DNA of 64,000 nucleotides from Inonotus obliquus. Its lineage: Eukaryota; Basidiomycota; Agaricomycetes; Hymenochaetales; Hymenochaetaceae. A program made the position numbers and the translations under genes. The stretch covers positions 1,984,001 through 2,048,000 of the forward strand of contig JAJHTX010000008.1 in NCBI GenBank assembly GCA_032164295.1, read 5' to 3'. Each line of letters begins with the position of its first letter. The stretch's first letter is position 1. This document shows positions 36,595 through 54,903 of this stretch, one piece after another. The notes below the pieces were generated by a model. The model ran no database searches, had not been told where the DNA came from, and saw nothing but the letters and a program-made list of their open reading frames with translations.

Positions 36595-37576
36595 TTGTTG
36601 CTTGCATCGCTATCCATTTTTTGTTTTGTGGAATGTTATGTTTTACGCTGTGAGTCAGCTGAATCAGCGATCGCCCGACGCAGGTGTTCACAGTACCTTC
36701 AGGACTTGGGCGTTAATCGGCCTGTTATTCTCAATAAAATCAAGGCTCTGCTAGTCAAGGACCAGGTTATTCCTGCGGCAGCCAGTCGCCGGACCGTAGT
36801 TTCGCTCGATGCATTCGCCCCTCTCCTCTCATCGCAGAGGGAGAAGGAGATCGTCGCAGTGGCTCTCTCTCCTTGCTCAGAGAAAAACTTCATCTTCTGG
36901 ATTGCAGCGAGCGGGCCTGGGAATAGACCGAACGAGGCCAAGAAACACATGGAAGAGATCTGGTCTATTCTGGAGGGTATCCGTACTAGTATTCATCCAT
37001 CGAAGCGGTGCCAGACAGCATCAGACGAAACTGGGGTGGTATCTTACCCTATGTCGGACCTCTTCCACAGCGGGTATTCCTACTCTCGAGAACGCCTGAA
37101 GAAGCACTTCGACACACCAAGGGATAAGGGCATGTACATTGATCTCCAGAAAACGCACGACGATGCAGCAAGATACCGCCTACTGGCGTTAGTTGACAAG
37201 TTGATCGAGCTATTCCGTTTGTACGAGTTATATGAAGCAGGAAACCCCGATCCTATTCGGACCGAAGAGAACGCATACCTTATGATCCGCCAGTGCTCTG
37301 AGGTGAATGATGCTCGGAAGAAGCTTCCCGATCGGAGCGTCGCCTTTCTGGAAACTTTACGTGAGTTTCACTTCAGTCACCTATAGAGAAATATCAACGT
37401 GTGGTTTCTAGTTTCTCAGTATGGTGGTGTTCAATCTGATAGGACTCTGTATGTGAGAATGATAGATAAGATGTTGACGCTGGATTCGAGTACTATATCT
37501 GTCCGAGTCCGGGTTTGGAAGTTTGGGCTTTGGATGACAGCTTTGGAACACTCAACTACAATTTTGCGGAAGACCA
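36595..37576 (+). pseudogene. unrecognised gene, 5' part, interrupted by a hAT-like element
   Basis: A 263-codon frame, 36595-37386 (real start perhaps near 36780). It is soluble, with SPCSEKNFIFWIAASGPG, HMEEIWSILEGIRTSI and KLIELFRLYELYEAG. A GTGAGT donor at about 37359 and further coding up to EVWALDDSFGTLNYNFAEDQ, next to the 37577 target duplicate, suggest more exons. On the far side of the 16.8-kb insertion block, 54431 onward reads CKDAMHDDCPMAYEAYDDF in the same orientation and may be the continuation. Family unknown. Confidence 0.4.
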
Positions 37577-37584
37577 ACTTATTA

Positions 37585-38630
37585 TGGGGAGTGGCAATCC
37601 GCGTCAAGAAAGTGTCCTGTTCCCACGACCCATGCCGCGTCCTGCCGGAGCTCGGTTACGCATAAGCGATGACCGGATTTTGAGAGATGCATTCGACTTG
37701 ACTAACCTCCATCCACAATGCAATAATGGCCAAAAGAAACTGTACATTTCATATAGTTAGTATCATAAATTGTATCTGTGTAAAAAAAAAAAAATTCTAC
37801 AAAAGTCTATTGAGATATGGTGGTATCTTGGCTCATATCTTAAGAACTAGGCAACTTCTTCAAAATTTTTTTTGAAGAAATTGAAGATAGACATGGTAAA
37901 ATACTCACCATGCATTGAGTTGAGTGATTCTTCAAGTTGTTGCTGAGGAGAAGAAGCAGGAAGATATGCAGAAGTACTAACAAAAAAGGAATAAAGCAAG
38001 CACGTGACCTGATGAGAATGCCTCGAAAAACATTGCCTGATTGACCAAATTGAACAAGAAAGAGATAGAACAATTCTCAACTGTGTGTAGTCGCTTATTT
38101 TACTTTCATAAGAGGTAGATACAGCTCTTATTATGTAGATAAGAGGAGGAGATGCAATATAGGCCAATGGAGGCCTGTTTATTCAAGAGATGTACCACTG
38201 AGAGAAGTGCATACAATGACATTAGATGAGGTAAAAGATCAGTTGGGTAGACTTTAAAGCTTCAATAATAGTATACCAATAGTACGTGTGTCTAGAAGTG
38301 CTGAATATATGCATGTTTTTAGCAATACTCAACGTATTTCTGCACTATATGCAGCTCATAGGTTTATTGGTGACGAAAACCAGCAGTAAAAATTGCTAGT
38401 ATTACTGATTATTCATTAGTTGTGTTGGATACTTAGTTCAATCAATATGTATGGACTGTTTTGATGCTTATTTATGAGTAGAATGACATGATATCCTTAG
38501 CAGCAGACAGGGACAATATGAAAGGTACAGCGGTAAAAAAGGATCGTCGTTATGATACATATAAAGTAATTATTCAAGCTCCGAACAAAAAAATCACAAG
38601 ACACTTTTTTGACGCGGATTGCCACTCCCC
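37585..38630. mobile_element. non-autonomous hAT-like element, 1,046 bp
   Basis: Ends TGGGGAGTGGCAATCCGCG and CGCGGATTGCCACTCCCC; the inverted similarity extends about 35 bp (through AAAGTGTC). ACTTATTA flanks both sides (37577-37584 and 38631-38638). Non-coding and AT-rich, it shares terminal and subterminal words with the elements at 25260 and 53400. Confidence 0.88.
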
Positions 38631-38651
38631 ACTTATTACAGCCGTTTGCAA

Positions 38652-40006
38652 AAGTAATGAGAAAAGCCTAAATCACGTGATTTTTTGACACATGTCGTGC
38701 CCTTGAACAACAAAAATGAATTGAGTGCTCTATTTCTCGGTCAATACTGCATGTAAAAATATGATATGGCTATGTAAAAAAAGTGCTCGAAAAAGTGCTT
38801 CCAACAGTGTAAGAATGTATGAGAAATATAGTGTGTACAAGACAGAACAAAACAGACAACCTTGTTAACCCATCCCTCACAACCATCCCTCAGGCCATTG
38901 AAAAATCACCACTCATGAAATACTCCATGTAAAAATATAATTCAGGTGGCATAATTCATGCAAGTGCAGAAGGTATCTGTGTACAAGTTCTTGTGGCATA
39001 TTGATAGGCCCTTCAATGGTAGAGTAAGGCAACAGCCATTCATGCCCACTTGCAGAACCCCTCTCCTCAGCCTCCTCACAGGGCACTAGCACTCATCATT
39101 TCGATTACCAACAGGTCAGTACTTGCCCTTCACTGCCTATTCCATCCAGTCGAAGCTCTGAAGAGAAAATGCAGCAGCCTTTGGAGCCAGGTCCGTCAAC
39201 ATCTTCATATTCTTCTTTGCATCTCGAGCCAACACGGTCAAAGCAGGCTAAGGAGCCTCAACGACAGATCAGTTAGCTACAATTTGTTGTTATCGCTCAG
39301 TACACAGCTCGCACGTACAGATAATATTAAGTACAAGAAGTAATTCACAACTGAAGGCAAACTCTCGATCAAACAAGAGCAGGTGGAACTCGAATCATCG
39401 CTACTAAAAGAATACAGTCTGAAACTGCATATGACGGCCAAAATACACGGGAATACAGAGGTAGAATGACATATAGAAGAACAGAATACTTATTCAGATA
39501 GGGAGGGAACAAGAAGAGCATGACACAGCAATTCCTGCTGTACACACATTACAAGGCAAGGCAAATGGAGCCACTGTGTGGTGACCTACTGCAGCGTGCT
39601 CTTGGTATACTCAAACAGCCGCAAAAGGGATCAACGTGCCCGCGTAAGAAGTAAGAAGACTGAGTCAAAATAAATAAACACAAAATGAGATCCTTTCGAG
39701 TAACGACTGCCAAACTAGACAAAGGAGAGGTGAAGAGGGCATAATTCCGTCCGTGGAGGGCAAGCAATTGTCCAGTCCGTAGTACTTTCAGCCTCCCACA
39801 GTGGGAGTGAGGCAAGGCTGGATGGTCCCTTGCCCAGCTCACGTCGCCTTCCCCTTCGCCTTCAAGTCTGTCGTCTTCAGCTCCTGATCCATCTGAGCAG
39901 GGTTAGCTGACTCCATCCATTGTAACAGAATAAGGTAGTCCGGATTTGTCGTATTCATTCCGTAATGTGTCTGCACTTCAATGAAATTATCGATTTCCTT
40001 CTCCGT
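38652..40006 (+). repeat. left terminal inverted repeat, 1,355 bp
   Basis: Mirror of 52044-53398. It includes the 3' end of the leftward gene (TEKEIDNFIE onward) and about 1.2 kb of non-coding DNA. Open frames at 39050-39343 and 39549-39842 recur identically in the other arm only because the DNA is duplicated; neither has a recognisable product. Confidence 0.92.
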
Positions 40007-41558
40007 GTTGGACGAGGCTCCATCAACTTCATCTTCGTTTGTTTCAAGAGTTTCGACTTTCTCGGTCTCCTGCAAAGCTTTACTGGAATCGAAAACTTCC
40101 TGCGAGTCGACGTCTCCTGTACAAGCCTTCTTGATCGTGGTCCACGCGGCTTCCAGCTGCTTGAAGGGTAGCTCAACCTCAAGTGCGCCCGCTTTTATAA
40201 GATCGTATACACGTGAGGATCCAGATATTGCTAGATTCAGTAACTTCGCGTCACCATGCACTTGCAGGCACTGCTGAAGAACATTAAGCCGATGAGTGCA
40301 GCTCCGCTGCTTCTCGAGAGCCTTCTTAATTTTCTTCTCAAAGACTCCTGTGTTTCCCTCTAGGTGGTTTATCAACACCAAATTGATCGGGGGACGTTCG
40401 ATTTGAGGACTGCTGTCAACCTTGATCCCGGAAGATTCAATGTTTGAAATGCCAACAACGATATCTGATTGTCCAAATAGAGTGTTTCAGATTCAGAATT
40501 GCTGTGAAATGCTACCTGCCTTAAGTGAAGGGTCCATACCTTCTCTCTCTTGGCGCTTCAGTGGCGCAGGAGTCCCTCCAGATGCACTGCTGGTATAGCC
40601 CGCCTGAGAGCGTTGCTGACTAGCATATACCACTTCTTCCACTGTACCACCACGAGAAAGTACTCTAATAAGGTTGTGTTGCTCAGCAAGCACAGCATTC
40701 AGAGATTCAATTTCTGCGCCCGTTTGTTCTGTTTCCTTCTTAACCACGCTATATTCCCATATTATGAGCAGGGCAAAGAACTTCAAGATGCGACCAAAGA
40801 ATTCCTCGATAGTTTCCGTACCGAAACGTCCAATTTTGTTACATTGGTGATTGGCTTCCGATCAAAAATCTCCGACAATTGCGGTGTTCGGAAGAGTAGC
40901 AAAATACGGACCATTTGGTGAATAACGCTCCTCTTCCAGAAGGTAGTGGAAAACAGAGCGACGAGGACGAAACAGGTACGTCCCATTCAGCCTTGATTGA
41001 ACATCAAAGTGGAGGCGGTAATGTTCCGTCAGCTTCAATAAAAACATGTGCCATAGATTGACTGGCATCGCCCATTCCAATTCGCTCAGGAAACCTGTCA
41101 CATTGAGGAACTTCAGAAGGACGAGCGTGAAACCACACACCATGTCAGATTGCGCCATTGTATACCCACATTGAACATCTAACAACTTTGTGGCTGCATC
41201 ATTCTGAAAAGAAAGAGAGACTATTAGGTAAGGTAGGAAAGGTGTGTCTAATTGTGAACGAGTCATTTACTCCTAAAGAAGAAGCCTCGAGCATCCTCAC
41301 ATGCTCCACGGTCTTGGAGAGCACCATCACAAACTCGGAGATATCCTTTTTCACCATTGCGGAATGGTCTTTCAACTTCGCACGTTGATCGTCTACAGCA
41401 CTCGCTACACCATCACAACGCTTATCAAGACGAGTTACATGCTGAGAAAGCCGATGAACGACATCGCATAGCACATCTGTGAGAACCATTATTTGATCAG
41501 GAGGATAACCCTCAGCCTCTTCCAGTTTCCTTTTAATCCTCATATGCTGAACAGTCAT
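39839..41558 (-). CDS. left coiled-coil gene of the 14.7-kb element
   Basis: Start proposed at MTVQHMRIKRKLEEAEGYPP (41558). The protein is helical: VVHRLSQHVTRLDKRCDGV, MVKKDISEFVMVLSKTVEHV, then KLLDVQCGYTMAQSD, RRSVFHYLLEEERYSPNGP, ETEQTGAEIESLNAVLAEQ and NVLQQCLQVHGDAKLLNLAI. It ends EIDNFIEVQTHYGMNTTNPD ... LKAKGKAT within the inverted repeat. Several short introns are needed and are not all resolved (for example around 41200-41265 and 40380-40500). Order and motifs parallel the rightward gene. No enzyme domain is seen; the length is roughly 450-500 residues. Confidence 0.55.
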
Positions 41559-41914
41559 ACCCTTAATAGGGTCTATAGAGCCCGATTTTAGGGGGGCAGG
41601 GCAAAACAAGACATGGAACGCACCTTCACCCTTCGATGTGCCATGGGTTGGGTGGGTTGAGAGGTGGGAAACAAATGTCGGCAGGCAGATGTCGCACCCG
41701 CGTATCCCAGTAGCGGGGCAGCTCTGAGACATAGTGTAAGTGTAGGACATTCTGACTGAACAGTCCAAACTGTGTGGCAAAGGGAGGTGTGTGAGTGTGA
41801 GTGTTAGGAGGTGGAGCGGGGGAAGAGAGATATAGGGTGATGGCTTACTAAGCTGCGACACTGTCGCAAGTTCTTTCTTTGTCTTTGTTTATTTCGCCCA
41901 CTGCCACTGCCAGC

Positions 41915-43081
41915 ATGACGCATGGGGTTCCTATCTCAGATGACCTGAGTCGCGTTATCGTGCACATGTCCACGAACTGTGGACTAGATGTAAAAGGCAT
42001 TGTTTATCTCACCACGGTTCCTCGGGCTTCAGTGTATCGGGTCTTGAATGCTTGGAAGCAAACTGGTGAAGAGGGTCTTGCACCCCATTCGAAATCAGGG
42101 CGTCCAAGGGCATTAGACTTCGCTGATACCCAGGTACGACTGAAGAATCGTGATCTTGGAGATGTAACTAACAAGGAACAAGTTTCTTTTGAAAACAGTG
42201 ACGTGTCACAATGATATCTATCTTGATGAACTCAGACAATCGCTCGAAGAAAGATGCGGTGTGAGAGTGTCTGATGCTACCATTTGGAGGACTCTTAACC
42301 GGGCAGGCTTTCAAATGAAGGAGGTAATTGTAGCTTATTCGAAAGGGCTGATAAAAAATCAACAATTTAACATAGATCACAAAGCATGCGCAAGAACGCA
42401 ATGAGTCCCGTCAAGCAGAGTATCGGCTTCGCATCGGAGCAAATTATTCTCCAGAGCAGTTGGTTTTCATTGATGAAAGTGCATGTGATCGAAGGACATA
42501 TTTGTGTGGTAGAGCATGGGCATTAGAGGGAGTTTGCGCATGCCGAAAGCAGGTATTCACGAGGGGAAAACGGTATACTTTCAGAGCTATCTGCACATCA
42601 CGTCATTTTCATGCTTCCAGGTATTCCATCCTCCCTGCTATATCTATGAGCAGAATTGTGGAATGCATGATTGTCGAAGGATCATTCAATACGGAGCTTT
42701 TTATGGTTTTCATTGAGGACCTTTTGGCCAAAATGAAGCCGTTTCTGGCACCGATGTCTGTCATTGTTATGGACAATTGTGCCATCCACAAAGCTCTCAA
42801 ACTTCTTGAGCTTGTCAAAGGAAGGTGATAACTTTTTTCAAATATGTTACTGAAAATTTGTTCACCACTTTCATAGAGGAATGAGGCTCGAATAATTGCC
42901 AGCGTATTCTCCCAACTTCAACCCGATCGAGCTAGCTTTCTCGCTGCTTAAACATAATTTACGTCACAGTCTGCCACCGGAGGGGGATGAGGTTCTTGTG
43001 TATGAATACCTATATCTTCAAACTTTTGGCATCTCTGCAGCAGATTGTCAAAGTTTCTATCATCAATCAGGCTATCTCTGA
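41915..43081 (+). pseudogene. Tc1/mariner (IS630-type) DD34E transposase with one nonsense codon
   Basis: Exons 41915-42133, 42183-42323, 42376-42824 and 42877-43081. The N-terminal helix-turn-helix reads LTTVPRASVYRVLNAW, then SKSGRPRALD. The middle, NDIYLDELRQSLEERCGVRV, is the usual second DNA-binding part. The catalytic triad is D in VFIDESACDRRT, D in VIVMDNCAIHK, and E in YSPNFNPIE; 34 residues separate the last two when the intron at 42825-42876 is removed. A TAA at 42893-42895 interrupts LE-stop-LPAYSP, where Tyr is usual. Terminal repeats with TA duplication were not found near it, so I cannot say whether it is the engine of the host element or a later arrival. Confidence 0.85.
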
Positions 43082-43292
43082 TTTGGTCCTGACGTGGATC
43101 CCAAGGAACAAATGCAGTTGAAGCAGTTTTATATATTTCATGCATAGAAAGAGCTGTTGAAGCCTGAAATGGATTAAATACAGCAAGTGAAAGACAGGAG
43201 GAAAGAAACTGTGCACAGCGAACAGAAAGGGAGTAAGTCGTGTGCATAAAACATCAAACAACTAAAGGAGAAAGCAATGCGACTGCACCATT

Positions 43293-45366
43293 TCAATAGG
43301 TAGACAACTTTCCATCCCTCTTGACACAAGCAACATCCTCCACCGCATAATCATGAACGCGATTCACCAGTCCTATCGTCATGTCTACCCCTTCCGCCTT
43401 TGCCAGAGCTTTGATCCTGTCTGTATTCATCCTTGCGATATTATCGATCCTTGTGCAACCATTATTCAAGAACTCGGGTGCAAGCTTCTGGTATTCATGG
43501 TTATCCCTGCCGCACTCCAAATCATCTTTGCATGCCTTGAGCCAATCTCCGATAGCTGGGTAGTTCAGTGGTCCTTTGTGTGTAGTAGAAGTTAAAACTT
43601 CCTGTGCTACTCTGACAGGTGCCGCATGCGAGTCTACCTGTATCTTGTGGACTCCACCATTAGTAGGAGGCGCCCCCTGATTCATTCTTCCTGGCCTCTT
43701 GTAGTCAAGTAATTTTGCTGACATCGACTCTGGGACTTTACTTGCAACTACATGCAACTCCCACCGTGCCTCATGATGCCCAGTTATCAGATCAGTAAGC
43801 GAAGAGAGTCAAACACAAAACTTACGAGTTTTTGCGCATGTTCCAAAATGAGATCGGGGGTATAAACACCGCAAGTACCATTGTATTTCTCGTAACACAT
43901 GCGGTTGTGCACTGGACAAAACATGGCAGCCTGGATACTCTTCGTAGCCTAAGTGATCTTTTCATCGGCGGAGTCCCTAGCAGAGTATGTAGGGTCAGTC
44001 TGTTTCAGTGCCCTACCCCTCGGCGTATCGGCTGCACGGACAGTCGTCTTCGTGGCACCCTATAGCAAATTCACTGAGCAAATGTCGTCATTTTCTAGGA
44101 AAGTAATTACCTGAAGAGTGTCCAACATGTTGCGAAAAACTATTTCGCATGTAATCTCCTGGTTGCGATTGCAATGTTTGCTCCGTTGATCCTTTACATA
44201 CCTTCTATATGCACACCAGAACTCCGTAAGTTCATCCGGGTTGGAAAGATATGTAAGGCTCTTCTTCGTCCCTATCTTCGAGCTCCAGGGGGCTTCATAC
44301 CCGATCTCAACAAGATGATTTGGTCGTTTCAATGCTTGGGCAGCCTTCTCTAAGATGTCAACGTGCTTGTCCAAAGATGATATGGTAACAATTTGTTCTG
44401 CCAGTCCATCGTGGACCTTGACTTTTATCTCTTCAATCTCCGGTCGTTTTGGGGTGCGACGTGTGTTCTTGCCTCTACTCGAGTTTGATGAGACTAGTGA
44501 TAATTTATCATCTTCATCACAATTAGTATGGATTTCATTCAGCAACAAAAGCATGGTATTTATTACCGTCGTCTTCAATTTCCTCAAGATCGGAATCGGA
44601 CAAAGGGATTGTAGAGTTCGCTATTCCGTCTACAAGGATCTGTGCAAGTACATCGTTCAAAAACTCCTCATCAAAAGTACTGGCATCAGCAGGCCCTCTG
44701 CCAGGGGACGGTAAGAAAGTTTTCTTCGGATGAGTATTGATCAGTAACGATGAACAAATAAATCACATACATCAGAGCCTGGATATCTCCGGAGTTGGAT
44801 TATGCAGGTCCAATGGTAGAGGTGGTTGTGGAAAATGATTACGTTTGCAAGGCGGTACAATGGACTTCAGAAGAATTAAGACATAAGCAAATTTATGAGA
44901 TCGGGAATATACCTTATCGTCTGTTTCTCTTTTGGAATCCATAGTGACGACAGCATCTTTCAGCTCTAGGTCAAAATACACCATTCTACAGTGTTCTTGT
45001 TGCTTCAGAAGTGGTCAATAGCAGATATAAAAGTGGGAAACAAGGCCATCATTACCTGACCACCCCTGTCAGTTCCAGTCCTGTCTTCACAGTGAATTCT
45101 CACAGCTTGAACAGCATGCTGTAACAAATATGTCGAAACCAGCACAAGGTGAAAGAAAAGAAGGAGCATACTTTGGCTTTGTCAACACAGGAATCAACAT
45201 TTGAGCCCTGCTGTTCTGGTGCGACTTTGCGAGGGCACCCACGACCACGCTTGACCATAGGGACGTCTTGGGCAGCTGCATCGAGAACCTTCTGAGACAG
45301 CTTTGGCCGGCGTCTGCTTCTTACAATCGCTGCCGCAGATAGATTCGAAGACAGCTCGGTAGACAT
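43293..45366 (-). CDS. AT-hook and SAM-like protein of the 14.7-kb element, multi-exon
   Basis: Exon 1 (45366-45172) encodes SRRRPKLSQKVLDAA and an AT-hook-like KRGRGCPRK. Later exons read HAVQAVRIHCEDRTGTDRGG, YFDLELKDAVVTMD, an acidic DASTFDEEFLNDVLAQ, and DKHVDILEKAAQALKRPNHL. After RNMLDTLQ comes a Cys/His cluster, FCPVHNRMCYEKYNGTCGVY, then a C-terminal helical module, PAIGDWLKACKDDLECG ... LAKAEGVDMTIGLVNRVHDY, that looks like a SAM-type domain. About 600-700 residues. The AT-hook suggests DNA binding, perhaps to element ends; that is inference. One in-frame TAG at about 43945 disappears if a short intron is used there. Confidence 0.5.
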
Positions 45367-46051
45367 GGTGGGTGAGGGCAAGTGCAAAGGAAAAGAGAAA
45401 CCAAGAGAAACCGTGATGTTACTGTCTGACACGTGTCCTTTCCGTTCGTCTCTTCTCTTCTTCTCTTACATACTTACCAACTCTCCGCATCACTGGGATG
45501 AGAACCCTGTCACTTTTATTCCCATGTCAGACAAGGTTCGAGTCAGCCGTTACTTTTCATCTTACCACCATCCTGACCTAACCTGGTCCATTGATCTCCT
45601 ACGATCTCTCTCAACCTCTCCACCCATGGACACAGACACTACAGACACTACAGGACAACAGGATAAAGCTTTGAATTGTACGTGACCTTTGGGATGCTGC
45701 ATGCTACCCGTTTGGCATTACTAATCAGAGTTATAGTGGCGCTCAAGGACGTCTTGAAGAAGAGAGATGACCTGGTATCACGCTTGTCCTCATCGAAAGG
45801 GAAAGTTGAAGATGGTTCTGCTGCTGTTATCGACAAGGCGGTGGATGTGATCGTCAAAATCTATGAACAGGTCCGATTGTTGTCCAGCAAACTTGGAACG
45901 GAAGAGAAGAAGATTAAAGAAGATGAGGTCACACTCAAGGACGTTCTCACAACGGTTAAGAGCGATATCGGGGAACAAGCTGAGGTGCTGGAGCAACTCA
46001 TACAAGTAATGAGAGAGTTGGAATCTAAGGCACTCGAGGTGAGCATGCCGC

Positions 46052-48921
46052 TGAATGTGCGAGAACGTGGCCGGTATCAGAAGTACCGGATGAGGGGGGT
46101 ACAATTTAGGTGCATTGAGAGGGCCGGTACGTGGCGGTGAAGAGAACTACGTGCGGCTGAGCTCGGTATCAACCCCGGTATCCTATTCTACGCTTACCCC
46201 ATGCTATGGTACGGTCCCATCTACACCTTACAGTATCCACCGGCACACCTAGAGAAACCGTTGGTCCCATTTCTCAAAGTACCGAACGCCGAGAGTACCG
46301 GTACCGAGCGCCAAGAAACCCGGTACCGAGAATACCGAGAGTACCGAGTGCCGAGAAACCCGGTACCGAGACAATTTGGCAATTTAACATGCTCTCATGA
46401 CATGGATCAGACGTCTTCCTCTCTGGTATTCATTCCTGATGGTTGGATTATGCATGCCGGTTCTTTGGGGAAGCTCAGGGTCAGTATCTGTTAAGGTTTT
46501 CAGGTCCGGTACCACCAGAAACGTGTCGGTATCAATCAGCAGGGGCGCAGATCTCTTGTCCTGAGGACTTTTCATCCAGGGGTACTATATGCTACGTTTT
46601 CATTGGTATCTTGTCCTCCCTAACCCTTTCTTGTTGTCCCCCTGATGGCGCTGCAATGTTCACTTTCATTGTTACATTTTTCTTCAGACTTTTCTTTGTT
46701 TTGATCTTCCTTTCTACTTTCTCCTTTTGGATTTATGAGCTAACTACGGTACAGTAGTATAAATATCTCCTCCTGTACGTAGTAGCTCTCCAGGTAATCT
46801 TAGGAGCTAGCCTCTAACATGAGGGCTCGGGTTTCCTCACCCCCTTCTCAGTCTCATCTCAGCTTCGTCTCAAGTTCTGTCCCAGTTTCGTCTCAAGTGA
46901 ACCTCAGGAGTTAGCCTCCCGTGCGAGGGCTCAGGTTTGCTTCCCAGTCCAGTCGACACCTTCATCTACCAGTCTCCCTCATTCTGTTTCTCGCTATACC
47001 ACCCCGTGCTAGCTGTTTCCTTGCAGTACCGACCTGTACCGACGTTTTGTTATTCTTCGTATTTTGCACATCCACCTTTCGTTTCTGTACTGAGCTTTTG
47101 TTTTACAACGTTTCTGCACATACCGAACCCGTTCGTTCAAGTACCGACCTGTACCGACATTTTTCCCACGGTACCGACCCCTTTCTTCCTGTACCGACCT
47201 GTACCGAGGTTTTTCCCACGGTATTAGACTCTTGTTTTGCTACGTTCTCTCCCATACCGACCTGTACCGAAGTTTTTCCCACATTCTAACCTGTCCTTTT
47301 CATACCAGAATCACATACCCTTCACTTCCGGCCCATCCATTAACTCCCCCTTTTCATAGACAACAAGTACCGTGACCGTACTGGTTAAGTACCGGCACGT
47401 ATTAGCCCTCCCCCACTTAAAACCATACACCCCTCGTCTCGGTATTTCGGTACCGGACGCGATCTCGCACATTTAGCGGTACTAAGTTGTACTGTCACAG
47501 ACAAGTTGTCAAGAGAGATAGTAGGGCCTGGCTGGATTGATGAGTACAGGGGGCTCTAGGTGACTGCTCGAGAGACGAGGTATCAGGAGACGATTGATAC
47601 CGAGTTGAATCCGTCGATACCGAGTCGTTCGTTGTCTGGTATCGCGGTAGTGAGAATGAAGCAGTAGAGAAGACGAGCAGAGGAGGTGTTTCTGATAGGA
47701 CTAGTTGTGAGACGAGAGGCAAGGATGATGAAGATGATAACGACGACTACCGGATTCGATACTGGTGACTACGAGACGAGATGAACGAACGGGGACTTGA
47801 ACGAGATGAGCAAAACCCGGACCTTCACTCTGGAAGTTCCTCTCAGATTAGCTGGTTTGCTACAGTAGAACATGCAGGCTATAAATACCATAATACCGTA
47901 GCCATTCAAGATACCAAATGGGGAGTTTTTACAAGTCGAATCGTACCACAATCTGGTACAAGAAGGGGAACATAAGATCGAAATGAATGTAAAAATATAA
48001 TCAGGAGAAACATAAGACAATGAATGAATAAGAAGTTTTATCAGGGGATGGCTAAGAATAGGGTGGGACGAAACAAGAACCCAATGAAAACTCACGATGA
48101 GTGATACCGAGGTAGGGTGGCAGTACCGACGTCAACCAGCGCTAAAATAAGGATGTGTCTCAAGCTATCGCATGGGTGCTCCTGGCGATGGCCCTGTCGT
48201 CTTCTTAAGCGCGTTGCCTGACCCGACTGGGCATTGCTTGGCTTCACCTCCGAGTCGGATCGATGGTCTCCTCCGAGATTGAAGCAGCATATGGCGGACC
48301 TGATTCATTTCCCATCCTTCCTCTCGACATAGATCTCCGAGGGCGTGGTCTCGACCTAGCACAAGTCACAGACTTCGGTACCAGAGTGGACCATCAGTAT
48401 CAACACCGGTATCGTCGGTATCGATGCACGGCGGTTCAGAAGGGCAGACTGTCAGACTTGGAGCTTTGACAATGATCCAACTCTTCGCAGCAACGTATGG
48501 CAGACCGATCGTAGCTCATGCGCCTTTCCCTCGGTATTGGCCGTCGGGGGCGTAGTATCGACTAAACGTAGACTATTAAGTGTTGGTACCAGGATGGGTG
48601 GACGGTACGGTATCGGTATCATTGGTATTGAAGTCTGGTGGTTCGGTACTGTGATGGAAGACGGGTGTAGAGATAGGTGATTCGGTATTGGCACAGAAGT
48701 CTGGCTAAACGCATGCAGGACCAGTTCTCAATCGATCTTAGCCTTGTCGGATTGCCGAAGCCTCGTACTTCGTTGGAACTGCAGGCGTAGATAGGACGGC
48801 AGAAGTACCGTGGTCCGAAGAGAAGTAAGAAGCGGTAGAGCAGAAGTATTATTAATTAGAAGAAGCGGTAGAATCGCAGAATTAAGCCTATATCAATCGT
48901 AGCCTCTGGTATTACCCTTTA
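46052..48921 (+). mobile_element. CCGG-targeting repeat family, copy 4, with a nested relative
   Basis: Starts TGAATGTGCGAGAACG and ends GGTATTACCCTTTA. CCGC flanks both ends (46048-46051 and 48922-48925). It contains a nested 1,338-bp relative and lacks about 250 bp near 48200 that copy 1 has. It sits in an intron of the rightward coiled-coil gene. Confidence 0.87.
46138..47475 (-). mobile_element. related repeat nested in copy 4, 1,338 bp
   Basis: GCGG lies on both sides (46134-46137 and 47476-47479). Read on the minus strand, it begins TAAATGTGCGAGATCGCG, like the family start, and ends GTTCTCTTCA. Its interior differs from the other copies and holds repeated GTACCGACCTGTACCGA words. This makes it a subfamily with the same ends and target size. 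Confidence 0.75.
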
Positions 48922-50042
48922 CCGCATAGCATTCAAGCGCATTTTGTCTAATGTTGTCTTGTTTCTAGTACAAGGGAAGCCATGAGGCTGTCGTTCTTTG
49001 TCGGCACCTTGATGATATTTGTGCTGCCATCGCACAAGGATTCATCCTTGCTATGAGTGATGATTTCATCAGTGGTGATCTTGTCAACCGTTACGACTCA
49101 CAAAAGTGTTCAGTGATATGGTGGAAGTTTACCAATCAGGTTAACCGGTCGTGGGAGTACTGTTACTGTTTATCTCCGAGGAGGGTTCATTGATCTTTGA
49201 TTGACGGACCGATCTGGCTAATTCCCCAATTTGAGGGGTTAATCCAAATTCTACAATATGGGTTATGGAATTGTTAATTACCTTAGTGGACTGTGTAGCT
49301 GATCCGATCTGAAACAACTAGCAACTAACTGGTATTGCAGTTGAACCTGATATTATAGTCGTACAGTATTAGATCGGCGTGAACACGCGGTTCCTATACT
49401 GATTGTTATTCACGATAAGAGAATATCAGGAATCGCACCACGTCGGGAGTAGGTCGTACCGTGCAGACAATAGGGAGAACAATCTAGTTGCAATCCGTAT
49501 TTTAGCTTTACTTTGATTTCACACAATCGGGTCAGTTCAGCCACGTCGCTACTAGTAATTTACTGGCTCGCAAGGTGATTGATGTTTAACGATTTAACTT
49601 AGGGACTTATGGTAGGGTCCCTTGACTTGGATTAAACTGCTAGGTCGGCTCTATCATGGCCTCCTTATATACTAATTTACATGTGTGATGTTACTACCTT
49701 GTTACTTACTGTTTTTAGTATTAATCTGTCTCTCGCTCTTGTGATACCTGGTCCGTGCTTTCCTTTCTTCTTCCTTCCTTATTTTACTACCTCTGTGCTA
49801 CCAGCCTTCTTTCGTTTAGTTTAGTTTAGTGGGCAGTACCATCTTGTGGATAGGTTTGATTCCTGCATCGGCATCGGTACTTGATCCAACTCGGCTATTC
49901 TAGGTAATTGCTGAGTCAGCTGTTCTTGTCTCTCCCTCGTTTGTATTTCCGTTCTTGGTTGTATCGGCAGGATTGGCTGAGGTATAGTTAACCAATTCTG
50001 AATTGTTTGCACTCGTGTGTACCCTGGTGTTGTCCTTGCGCG

Positions 50043-50650
50043 TTATAGGGTCGTCCCTTGTACTCCTTGTAAGTGTATTATTCCGCCGTGTTGCTCTGCC
50101 TTTACTTCCATTACAGTGTACCCATATGGTAATCCTCGACTTATGTAATTCATTATCCAATGTCCCCAAGTGTATGCAGTTCTCTCGTTCATTCCTTCTC
50201 GGTCTCGTTTATAAGCAATGTCAATATCTACTATAGCTGCATTGCATCTTTCGTGTCTTCCTTCCTGTGCTACATTTCGTATTCCGATCATCATTACAAA
50301 GTATCCGGTGTCGTAGGATAATACTCTTATTTCTCTTTCATAAGCCTTTTGTATTTGTTGATTAGGATCGTAGGTCAATTCCACGAATTGACATCGTATC
50401 ATTATGTCGGCTTGCCTGTTCATTATATCTCCGTATGTGATCTCCCTGATTAATTCCCGCATTAGTCCTCCGGCTAGTTCTTTAGCTGGTCGGCATATGT
50501 TGCAACATTGTAATATATTGCTTCGCGGTGTCGGTGGAACGATGGGCTGTTCTAGTACTTGTATTACTGCCGTTAATCGTTCTTGTATCCAACGTAGGAC
50601 ACTCATAGTTATTGGCTTATTAATGATGGATAACACTACCTTTCTAACAG
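50043..50650 (-). CDS. repeat-borne ORF, CxxC protein, related to 26835-27386
   Basis: The frame includes CCNICRPAKELAGGLMRELIRE, EREIRVLSYDTGYFVMMIGI and RGLPYGYTVMEVKAEQHGG. The apparent extension to 50846 (repeats of LIATI) is only the antisense of a tandem repeat and is left out. Several hundred bases of non-coding DNA (about 49137-49800) follow its 3' end. The insertion splits exon 3 of the coiled-coil gene from the rest. Function unknown. Confidence 0.4.
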
Positions 50651-50679
50651 TTACCAGTTCTAACAGCTCTTCGACAGCA

Positions 50680-50870
50680 ATAAGGATGGTGGCAATGAGG
50701 ATGGTGGCATTGAGTACATTGAGGATGGTGGCAATGAGTACGATGAGTACGCTGAGGATGGTGGCAGTGGGTACGTTGGTGATCATGGCAATGAGTACAC
50801 TGAGGGTGGTGGCAATGAGCACGTTGGCGATCGTGGCAATGAGCACGTTGACAATCGTGGCAACAAGTTC
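50680..50870 (+). repeat. tandem repeat encoding a GNE-rich segment of the coiled-coil gene
   Basis: About twelve diverged 15/30-bp units (GATGGTGGCAATGAGTAC). Read in the frame of the downstream coding it gives EDGGNEY, VGDHGNEY, VGDRGNEH and VDNRGNKFIDKER. The reading frame is kept throughout, so it was probably part of the protein. Confidence 0.6.
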
Positions 50871-52043
50871 ATTGACAAAGAGCGTTGTGACCAGAGATTT
50901 CGAGCAATCCAGAACAAGAGTGTTTTCTCGTTAATAATGAAGAATCTACCTTACGAAGCTCTCTTCGATACCGGTCATTGTGTATTCACTTGCAACGGTA
51001 AAAATCGTGCTGTGCTGGGTTACGGGCAGATTGAAGAAGGGAGTGCAACTCTGGCGAGACAGCTAAGGTTCTTTGCACCAATCTTTATATGGAAATTCAT
51101 GGAGACGAAGTGTGACATATTGAAATGGAGCCAGCAGGTGCAACACTGCAAGGATCAAGTCAGTTCGCTCCGAACAGCGCTCGAACTCATGGAAGCAGGA
51201 AACATTGTGGAAGCATTAAAGTTCATCGGTGAACAATCCCCACCCAAGAGGCCTGGCAATGAAGTTTCCAATAATGATGGCACTGGGGACAAATTTGCTT
51301 TTGGAACAGCGCAAGAGTTACGACGGAAACCTGAGTGGGGCACAAAACTGGGGACTTTGCCCCATTTTTCCCTGCCAGGACTGGAAAAGAAGGCACAACT
51401 AAAGCGAAAGCCGACCAGCAATGGTAATGCATACAGAGGCTCGCGACCCCGTTTTGAAGCCGATGTGTCAACCTCAACCCGTAGTTATGCCGCTGAAGCA
51501 CTCAAGAAGGTCCACTTGACCTATCCGGATGAGGGCCAACTTGCCCAAATTGCTCAGGACCCTCCTGAGAGGACCTCACATCCCCAGGCACTTCAAAGTA
51601 CCTTGGTGACAACTGACTGGTAGCATACCAAAGAGGGGACTGCCCAACAGCAGAGGGAGAAAGTTTTGCTCTTGCGAGGGGCTGAAGGTCAACTCGCCGG
51701 AGCCAAGAGACAATTCGACACGCTCCAAAAGTGTCTTCATATCCTCCTTTCCAACAATATACTCCATCTTGCAGTAACTGGCCTATCGGTATTGAGAAAC
51801 TCACTGAACTATCTAGCACACTCCAGGCATGCATACGACAAAGATTACGAGGAGTCCATATGAGATGTCGAACAGTTGCTTGAGAGGGTTCAAAAAAATA
51901 TCACCGATAAAGGTAATATGGATCTGTTGGCTGCATTTGACGAGACGCGGCAAGATGAAAAAGAGATTGCACATGGCAAGGAACTTGAAGAGGCACATCG
52001 TGTTCTTATGGAGAGTGATTACTTTGCCAAGGACAACATGTCA

Positions 52044-53398
52044 ACGGAGAAGGAAATCGATAATTTCATTGAAGCGCAGACACATTACGGAATGAATACG
52101 ACAAATCCGGACTACCTTATTCTGTTACAATGGATGGAGTCAGCTAACCCTGCTCAGATGGATCAGGAGCTGAAGACGACAGACTTGAAGGCGAAGGGGA
52201 AGGCGACGTGAGCTGGGCAAGGGACCATCCAGCCTTGCCTCACTCCCACTGTGGGAGGCTGAAAGTACTACGGACTGGACAATTGCTTGCCCTCCACGGA
52301 CGGAATTATGCCCTCTTCACCTCTCCTTTGTCTAGTTTGGCAGTCGTTACTCGAAAGGATCTCATTTTGTGTTTATTTATTTTGACTCAGTCTTCTTACT
52401 TCTTACGCGGGCACGTTGATCCCTTTTGCGGCTGTTTGAGTATACCAAGAGCACGCTGCAGTAGGTCACCACACAGTGGCTCCATTTGCCTTGCCTTGTA
52501 ATGTGTGTACAGCAGGAATTGCTGTGTCATGCTCTTCTTGTTCCCTCCCTATCTGAATAAGTATTCTGTTCTTCTATATGTCATTCTACCTCTGTATTCC
52601 CGTGTATTTTGGCCGTCATATGCAGTTTCAGACTGTATTCTTTTAGTAGCGATGATTCGAGTTCCACCTGCTCTTGTTTGATCGAGAGTTTGCCTTCAGT
52701 TGTGAATTACTTCTTGTACTTAATATTATCTGTACGTGCGAGCTGTGTACTGAGCGATAACAACAAATTGTAGCTAACTGATCTGTCGTTGAGGCTCCTT
52801 AGCCTGCTTTGACCGTGTTGGCTCGAGATGCAAAGAAGAATATGAAGATGTTGACGGACCTGGCTCCAAAGGCTGCTGCATTTTCTCTTCAGAGCTTCGA
52901 CTGGATGGAATAGGCAGTGAAGGGCAAGTACTGACCTGTTGGTAATCGAAATGATGAGTGCTAGTGCCCTGTGAGGAGGCTGAGGAGAGGGGTTCTGCAA
53001 GTGGGCATGAATGGCTGTTGCCTTACTCTACCATTGAAGGGCCTATCAATATGCCACAAGAACTTGTACACAGATACCTTCTGCACTTGCATGAATTATG
53101 CCACCTGAATTATATTTTTACATGGAGTATTTCATGAGTGGTGATTTTTCAATGGCCTGAGGGATGGTTGTGAGGGATGGGTTAACAAGGTTGTCTGTTT
53201 TGTTCTGTCTTGTACACACTATATTTCTCATACATTCTTACACTGTTGGAAGCACTTTTTCGAGCACTTTTTTTACATAGCCATATCATATTTTTACATG
53301 CAGTATTGACCGAGAAATAGAGCACTCAATTCATTTTTGTTGTTCAAGGGCACGACATGTGTCAAAAAATCATGTGATTTAGGCTTTTCTCATTACTT
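52044..53398 (-). repeat. right terminal inverted repeat, 1,355 bp
   Basis: Mirror of 38652-40006. It carries the shared last exon of the rightward gene (to 52211) and non-coding DNA. The frames at 52208-52501 and 52707-53000 are copies of those in the left arm. Confidence 0.92.
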
Positions 53399-53399
53399 G

Positions 53400-54422
53400 T
53401 GGTGGGGCGCAATCCCCTATTGCCGCGCGAGCCAATTTTTTTCAGTCGGAGTTTTAAATCTTACCATATATGGCTGTAATGGGCCATCTGCATTTACCGC
53501 CTTTCTGTCTTCATGTCTACATCCCCTGGCCAGCGATTTCTAGCCTGTTCTTTGACATAGACTCATGTATACAGTAGATATTCTCTACTTTGTCGCATAA
53601 ATCTGAAATATTCAACTTATTTATTGAATTTGACGTGCATATATGCTGGATGCACAAAACCATGCTTGCATGGCCAACTACTGTGCCAAATAAGACAGAC
53701 AAAGAAAAACTTTTTCAACTCATATCAGTGTTCTTCATCTTAATGATGTCATAAACATCACCTGTACGCATCGAGATTGTGCAAGTCTGGTCAGAACTTT
53801 TGCTAATTGTATGGACAATTACAGGCTCTCCAAGTCGATGAACAGCATACTGGTCCAGTGCATGATTTGATATCTGCCTATTTCAATATCAAAGCTCCAG
53901 ACATGAGCTTAAAACCCTTCTTAGTGATGCTGGTGTTTTTTCCTTCAAGTCCTGGTCAGTCTAAGTGATTCGAAGTGGTGTTCCGAAGTGTCACGTGACC
54001 CATTTCTTCCTAATTGAGGCAATTTACATGGAGCAAACTGCGGTAGTACAAGTTGTTTTATTCATCAACCAGTTGCAAAATCATACAACTCAATGCATTA
54101 TAAGTATCCTTTCATTCAAGTCTTCAATTCATACAAAAAACATTTCATAAAAAATGCCCAGCTCTTGAGATATTGGGCTGAAATACTCTATATCTCAGGT
54201 AATACTCGAAAATTTGTGAAACAATTTTGTATGAATTTTGATTTTGATATAATAAAGTGATAATATGCATGAAAACTTATTTTTTTTGCATTGTGGAAGG
54301 AGGTAATTGAAGTCGAATGTGTCTCTTGAAAACCGGTAAACGCTTAACGCTGCGTCGATCGCCGGCACGACGCGGCAGGCCCGTGGGAACGCACGCGGGA
54401 GACTTAGGGATTGCCACCCACC
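53400..54422. mobile_element. non-autonomous hAT-like element, 1,023 bp
   Basis: Ends TGGTGGGGCGCAATCCC and GGGATTGCCACCCACC. ATTACTTG flanks both sides (53392-53399 and 54423-54430). It inserted at the last bases of the 14.7-kb element. It is the closest relative of the ends of the 9.3-kb element at 25260. Non-coding. Confidence 0.85.
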
Positions 54423-54430
54423 ATTACTTG

Positions 54431-54903
54431 CTGTAAGGACGCCATGCATGACGATTGTCCGATGGCATACGAGGCATACGACGATTTCATTCTCAGGACG
54501 AAAACTCTTGAAACACCGACGGGTTATACTGTCATGCGGAAGGATAACGCTCGTTTCCCAGTTCATGGGAAGTGTGTGCTCCTTGCACACATCGATCAGG
54601 CGAAGATCCCTACTTAGGTTGAACCCTTCCGTCCCCAGGTTTTTTGTCCGTGGGACGCATTCTAGGCAATATCCTTGGGTAGTGCCACCTAACATGCCCA
54701 ATAGGGACGTGACGCTACGTGCTATGGAGTCGCTCGACACAGCATTCTTCCGAGACCTCGTACCAAAGAATTTTAGAAATCGCAAGATATCTGAGAGCAG
54801 CCCCTGGTCGCCCACCGATCACAAGGTGAAGAAGGATTGGGGTTTTGGGAGGGTGTTTTTGACCAAAGAGCTGTTCGTAGTGCTTTCCCTATTACTTTCT
54901 TGA
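54431..54903 (+). pseudogene. possible 3' part of the gene begun at 36595
   Basis: The frame to 54617 reads CKDAMHDDCPMAYEAYDDF, ILRTKTLETPTGYTV and FPVHGKCVLLAHIDQAKIP, then stops; other frames continue for about 90 codons. The orientation and position directly after the insertion block suggest it belongs with 36595-37576, but no domain supports this. Confidence 0.3.

Follow-up and report, generated by a model that had tools for sequence, protein, structure and literature searches.

Does the 64,000-nucleotide stretch of the Inonotus obliquus genome analyzed here (GenBank assembly GCA_032164295.1, contig JAJHTX010000008.1, positions 1,984,001 to 2,048,000; hereafter the window, C8:1984001-2048000) hold a mobile element, or has host sequence been duplicated there in inverted orientation? 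The locus consists of two long inverted arms in which two outward-running genes, L and R, end; between the arms lie a transposase gene, T, and a gene for an AT-hook/SAM-like protein, S. A preliminary description, made from the sequence alone, had proposed a mobile element. After screening the genome (36 Mb, 30 contigs), we read the locus as a decayed copy of a multigene DNA transposon of the Tc1/mariner type with long terminal inverted repeats (TIRs); this reading, mechanism included, is the best joint explanation (probability approximately 0.87). That the unit is a mobile element we regard as nearly certain. It is taken for a transposon because it combines a DD34E transposase, CAG-ended repeats adjoining TA, flanks that join seamlessly, and relatives that carry its terminal block together with T and S.

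As the preliminary description had seen, the two arms (38652-40006 and 52044-53398) have the same length, 1,355 bp, and are nearly identical; they mismatch at 2 of 1,355 positions. The bounds that it gave for the element, 38652-53398, proved too short. At the left border the sequence reads TA followed by CAGCCGTTTGCAA, starting at 38637. The right arm halts at 53398 because an insert (X; 1,023 bp) resembling a miniature inverted-repeat transposable element (MITE) sits there; behind it, the terminus resumes as GCTG/TA at 54430-54435, with 9 repeat bases missing. A truncated right end, the first idea raised by the stop at 53398, was dropped when CATTACTT-GCTG-TA was found behind X. The true unit spans 38639-54433, which corresponds to C8:2022639-2038433, with borders TA/CAG...CTG/TA. 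It measures 15,795 bp, or ∼10.4 kb without its nested insertions, and its TIR is 1.37 kb long (Table 1).

The preliminary description had proposed to map empty sites; an uninterrupted paralogous gene was found for this unit, and empty sites were found for a relative. When the host flanks of the window element were joined, with X and a similar insert at the left border (Y) omitted and one TA kept, they formed an open frame. Two other genomic places matched the whole joined stretch at 75% (2/4 matches; the remaining two were the flanks themselves), and a host paralog at C13:162150-162600, read base by base, aligns over the junction without a gap. For the relative at C6:2905390-2915010, the joined flanks returned 38 matches across the junction among the 40 listed, which were scored from 119 candidates; the other two were its own flanks. 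All of the C6 empty sites read base by base (3/3) show a single TA.

The arm has relatives elsewhere in the genome. The full arm is present in only three places and L/R-type genes in only two loci, but a further 42 matches to parts of the outer ∼420 bases of the arm were found at 67 to 78% identity, some of them two per locus and several as inverted pairs. Among the ends laid out (n = 22), 14 have TACAG at or near the border and one (the right end of C2A) has AACAG; TA occurs at both borders in the window element, C2C, and C8b. Stretches of T type number 117 and those of S type 26, including those of the window and with several stretches per gene possible. Protein identity of the relatives to the window is 28 to 60% for T and 28 to 41% for S. 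In 10 of 11 relatives with two sides compared (C2A, C2B, C2C, C6, C8b, C10, C10b, C12b, C13, and C13b), inverted stretches of ∼0.3 to 2.4 kb contain transposase sequence and S lies between them; for C10b, C13, C13b, and in part C12b, the sequence compared did not include both outer ends. The exception, C3, has 580-bp inverted repeats and a single transposase fragment in the middle of the element. In C5, whose sequence was taken in pieces, the two sides match at 99.8% over 472 bases, across the transposase. In C13, C6, and C2A, inspection by eye revealed a helical, coiled-coil-like gene head to head with S, as R is in the window. We considered this central gene as an L/R homologue and dropped the idea; it is a positional counterpart only. 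Separately, we note a further 2.8-kb inverted repeat (70% identity) inside the C10 relative (C10:1660274-1667270). The octamer TGTAARAA occurs four times in the outer 420 bp of the window end, where ∼0.1 copies are expected, and four times in the C11 end as well. As a candidate subterminal motif or binding site it is a lead only, since 3/16 ends have no copies.

The preliminary description named full-length copies at other sites, with the same arms and gene order, as proof of a mobile unit, and most of that test is borne out. A copy on C11 keeps the order over one arm, R, S, T, and the beginning of L, but it is cut off within L and has neither most of that gene nor the other arm. Its main blocks are 93.8 to 97.1% identical to the window, and identity is 88.7% in a 150-bp piece of R that bears repeats. 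Because blocks 46050-48921 and 49167-50646 are missing from the C11 copy, they are nested insertions in the window copy. Over two blocks of at least 800 bp (7,507 aligned columns, leaving out the left-arm block and all blocks below 800 bp), the copies differ by 339 transitions and 27 transversions. With 91 transitions whose neighbor also differs set aside, 28% (167/590) of CpG sites with C in at least one copy differ, versus 0.8 to 4.3% for the other C contexts. Such strong CpG-to-TpG decay points to methylation-driven decay in the host fungus; passages of PMC4352252 also report a CpG decay pattern for some basidiomycete transposons.

The transposase places the element in a known superfamily. 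The catalytic domain of T matches PF13358 (DDE_3) at an E value of 8e-11 (42.4 bits versus a cutoff of 28.6), and 34 residues separate the second D from the E in the spliced frame, with one intervening stop read as X. The match to NCBIfam IS630 has the same E value, 8e-11, but at 41.9 bits it lies under the cutoff of 100. N-terminal helix-turn-helix matches (HTH_32, E value of 1.2e-5; HTH_29, E value of 1.3e-5) are both below the Pfam cutoffs, and a resolvase-type HTH_7 match is weaker still (E value of 0.11). Thus, a DD34E transposase does lie between the arms, as the preliminary description stated, and so does the gene that it called AT-hook/SAM-like; of the two labels, the AT-hook exceeds the Pfam cutoff only in the Sanghuangporus sanghuang homologue (P0002), and the SAM-like resemblance falls below it (E value of 0.17). 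The splice model of S contains two stops, one of which falls where the S. baumii annotation (P0001) has an intron, leaving one in the coding sequence. A search of solved structures with T and S gave no meaningful match.

L and R run outward and both terminate in EIDNFIE...KGKAT within the arms, with the last ∼55 codons in common. The preliminary description took this tail for a shared last exon. The common ending stands; the tail itself forms the 3′ portion of a long exon rather than an exon of its own. A separate last exon was ruled out because R forms a single frame over 50646-52208 bar two stops and the C11 copy does so bar one. Of the three in-frame stops in the second stretch of L (39839-41203), two fall within a piece left out of the S. 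baumii annotation (P0004); that piece is probably an intron, which would leave one stop in the coding sequence. The distant relationship previously suggested for the two proteins outside the arms was upheld. Over their full lengths, the S. baumii proteins align across 662 columns at 25% identity (E value of 3e-37). With the last 58 residues removed, the alignment score is 155, versus 42 ± 6 for shuffled sequences (n = 300; maximum, 62), and BLASTP gives an E value of 2e-11. The program hhalign joins L and R at an E value of 1.5e-28. Taken together, these values indicate that L and R are true, distant, full-length paralogs. Their putative coiled-coil label comes from reading the sequence and from helices predicted at low confidence.

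Three protein searches with S, R, and L (about 8,000 candidates scored in each) returned named matches only from S. baumii and S. sanghuang; the method detects only relatives that have exact short words in common, so a lack of matches in other taxa carries little weight. In S. baumii, all three homologues are annotated as unbroken proteins: S (563 amino acids [aa], 92% identity), R (709 aa, 81% identity to the C11 copy), and L (533 aa, 89% over 90% of the window L). The locus tags of S and L are neighbors in this species (ACEPAG_9375/9376), and the contigs of the two genes are equal in length. The S. sanghuang homologues of S (404 aa, 75% over 70%) and L (530 aa, 56%) are two locus tags apart (8836/8834), and the gene between them could be T.

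The likeness of the arms was examined against the C11 copy. Of 66 left-arm differences from C11, 64 are common to the right arm, and the two sites that separate the window arms are both of CpG type. The simplest reading would be that the decay came before one arm was last copied onto its counterpart. This bears out the earlier suggestion that the arms are kept alike while the rest diverges, as do the S. baumii L and R proteins, which come from different loci and are 81.8% identical in the tail and 23.8% in the body. The L proteins of S. baumii and S. sanghuang have the reverse pattern, with 67.1% identity in the body and 49.1% in the tail. The tail sequence tracks the element rather than the gene. 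In the relatives, the two transposase copies of an element are mutual best matches in 6/7 cases (C10b_R, which was cut wrongly, and the right transposase of C13, which is split by an insertion, were left out); in the exception, C8b, the right copy resembles C13 more closely. The homogenized ends therefore span the transposase in most relatives and only the L/R tail in the window. A single recent copying event can yield arms that are 99.8% alike, and the C11 copy has no second arm for comparison, so similarity of the window arms would also fit one event without recurrent conversion. We nevertheless consider that account unlikely, because tail sharing recurs in S. baumii between an L and an R at different loci, so that a single event in this copy does not account for it, and because most of the relatives compared show mutual best matches between their transposase copies. 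That the arms are long TIRs homogenized by copying is very likely.

L, S, and R may serve the element. Alternatively, they could be host genes captured by chance that have no role in it: none has a known transposition function, and their matches to known domains are weak only. Chance capture nonetheless looks improbable to us, since elements as divergent as those described above still combine S with T and the ends and since a helical gene adjoins S head to head in each of the three relatives examined by eye, which suggests retention. We think it somewhat more likely than not that S, L, and R assist transposition, with anti-silencing as one possible form; the AT-hook in S and the CpG decay do no more than make plausible a factor like the VANC and TnpA proteins discussed below, which would bind the element ends and lower methylation. 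As another species has unbroken annotated versions of S, L, and R, a role in transposition or in escape from CpG-type decay is directly testable.

Under a rival reading, host sequence was duplicated locally in inverted orientation and a small mariner element landed midway, so that the arms would not be transposon ends. The rarity of the full arm and of L/R-type genes would agree with this reading, but we reject it as exceedingly improbable because CAG ends adjoin TA at both borders, the flanks of the whole unit join seamlessly against an uninterrupted paralogous gene, and the arms are not unique to the locus, with a second copy on C11 and the terminal block present with T and S at many sites.

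Several observations weigh against the transposon reading or parts of it. Even when probable introns are discounted, at least one in-frame stop remains in each of T, S, L, and R in the window, and R is also split. The stops leave present activity unsupported; the window copy is dead or can at most be mobilized in trans. A second copy that has both arms together with complete L and R was not seen in the genome. At the insertion point, the host paralog has CA where the window has TA, so the TA at the window target is inferred only from the two flanks. Before X and Y were recognized, matches to the joined window flanks crossed the junction by a few bases at most. For the joined flanks of C8b, too, matches extended at most a few bases past the junction (8/10 on the left flank only; the other two were its own flanks). 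Neither TACAG nor AACAG was found in 7/22 ends, and the right ends of C2B, C3, and C10 do not have the outermost bases found in their left ends, as had first seemed true of the right end of the window element. The central gene of the relatives has no homology to L/R detectable by tblastn or hhalign (P of 0.23). The S. baumii R homologue lies on a different contig from S and L, and linkage alone ties S, L, and R to transposition. Finally, structure models of S and L were unusable (mean predicted local distance difference test [pLDDT] scores of 34 and 45).

We propose the following mechanism. T would cut the whole unit and paste it at TA, while S, through its AT-hook, and the coiled-coil-like L and R would assemble on the conserved subterminal block. 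This complex may assist end pairing or relieve silencing. Occasionally, gene conversion or break repair would overwrite one end with the sequence of the other. Such copying would extend or refresh the repeats and keep the L and R tails alike in the window, and the same process may have put transposase sequence into both ends of the relatives. L and R themselves may go back to a single gene that was copied from one end of the element to the other and then diverged in its inner part; we give this origin through end-over-end copying about even odds. More tentatively, the window element may represent a distinct fungal Tc1/mariner lineage with a multiprotein machine (T, the AT-hook protein S, and the paired L and R) in which end-over-end copying repeatedly sets a duplicated gene, the transposase in most relatives and the L/R gene here, so that the element would breed its own paralogs.

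Table 1. Positions within the window of the element, its genes, and the insertions in and beside it
Feature	Position	Strand	Remarks
MITE-like insert Y at left border	37585..38631	.	7-bp duplication CTTATTA at 37578-37584 and 38632-38638
TA adjoining left end	38637..38638	.	
Left TIR	38639..40006	+	Outer 13 bases CAGCCGTTTGCAA plus 1,355-bp arm
Gene L, coiled-coil-like protein	39839..41750	-	Exon 41271-41750 plus second stretch 39839-41203
Gene T, spliced DDE_3 transposase, DD34E	41915..43081	+	One in-frame stop, in last exon
Gene S, AT-hook/SAM-like protein	43293..45366	-	About 8 exons
Gene R, paralog of L	45524..52208	+	Split by nested insertions; two in-frame stops after 50664; unbroken S. 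baumii homologue P0003
Nested repeat insertion(s) within R	46050..48921	.	Missing from C11 copy
Nested insertion within R	49167..50646	.	Missing from C11 copy; 8-bp duplication (one mismatch, by eye); part of antisense open reading frame
Right TIR (arm)	52044..53398	-	Holds 3′ end of R
MITE-like insert X, 1,023 bp, inside right terminus	53399..54421	.	8-bp duplication CATTACTT at 53391-53398 and 54422-54429
Right-terminus remainder beyond X	54422..54433	.	Ends in GCTG; 9 terminal-repeat bases missing
TA adjoining right end	54434..54435	.	

The inserts and the interrupted gene have relatives of their own. Insert X has the ends GTGGTGGGG../..CCACCCAC and a 96% copy at C2:2689601-2690720; the ends of Y are related to those of X (GGGGAGTGGCAATC), and a Y end recurs at many other sites. 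An inner piece of an X-like repeat forms the left flank of C8b. The antisense open reading frame at 50043-50930 (minus strand), which lies partly in the insertion at 49167-50646, encodes a product with 48% identity over 198 aa to that of an open reading frame at C5:1115705-1116295. The host gene into which the element is inserted (37415-37584 and 54436-54605 of the window) belongs to a small family (protein piece NYNFAEDQLIKDAMHDDCPMAYEAYDDF), other members of which lie at C13:162150-162600 and C13:379647-380020.

Among known systems, the window element is closest to Tc1/mariner (IS630-Tc1-mariner), with which it has in common a DDE_3 domain with DD34E and TA adjoining CAG-ended terminal repeats. 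The core features tested, namely the catalytic domain, the DD34E spacing, and the TA target-site duplication (C6 against its three empty sites), all indicate membership. Passages of PMC7325037 give Tc1 a mean length of about 1.3 kb and describe some members with TIRs of several hundred base pairs. In contrast, the window element is ∼10 kb long, with 1.37-kb TIRs and several further genes, and does not have the small, single-gene, short-TIR form that is typical of the superfamily, though not strictly defining.

The nearest architectural parallel comes from ciliates: the Tec and TBE elements are multigene elements with a DD34E transposase and three open reading frames, and Tec also has long TIRs (about 700 bp; PMC7325037, in the portion consulted). 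They differ in host and in their extra genes, a site-specific recombinase in Tec or a zinc-finger protein in TBE, which are unmatched in the window; Pfam and NCBIfam scans of the element proteins gave no recombinase match beyond the weak HTH_7 in T. Section 8 of PMC7325037 mentions no gene ends shared by the arms. The word "undescribed" in the preliminary description thus needs qualification: no described fungal match was found in the literature searched, but the superfamily is known, as are multigene, long-TIR members in ciliates. Within that literature, subscription papers and repeat databases aside, we found no Tc1/mariner element from a fungus that carries genes of this kind or has transposases in both repeats.

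Other comparisons concern single traits. TnpA of En/Spm is a transposon-encoded, sequence-specific protein that counters silencing, and both VANDAL and En/Spm belong to superfamilies other than Tc1/mariner. VANDAL VANC proteins are likewise transposon encoded, sequence specific, and described as countering silencing in parts of PMC10398659 and PMC5735166; with both systems the parallel is functional only. Fungal DNA transposons with a passenger gene have precedent in KDZ and other elements that captured TET/JBP (PMC12730594, in part), although these use other transposases, the text seen of that source does not contain the word mariner, and Pfam scans of the element proteins gave no TET/JBP match. 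KolobokP was rejected as a parallel because, in the passages of PMC9587614 concerned, its repeats are direct rather than inverted and it belongs to another superfamily. Galileo, a member of the P superfamily in Drosophila, has long TIRs that grow by recruiting internal sequence, for which exchange and conversion are proposed in sections of PMC3573991. Repeats extended by copying are what we propose for the window element, although the transposase superfamily differs and those sections mention no accessory genes. The element may thus offer a natural example of terminal repeats that grow inward by copying and make paralogs within one element. In the sources considered here, Tc1/mariner elements are mostly small, with one gene; a fungal branch with linked genes and gene-bearing, homogenized ends would widen that picture outside the ciliates.

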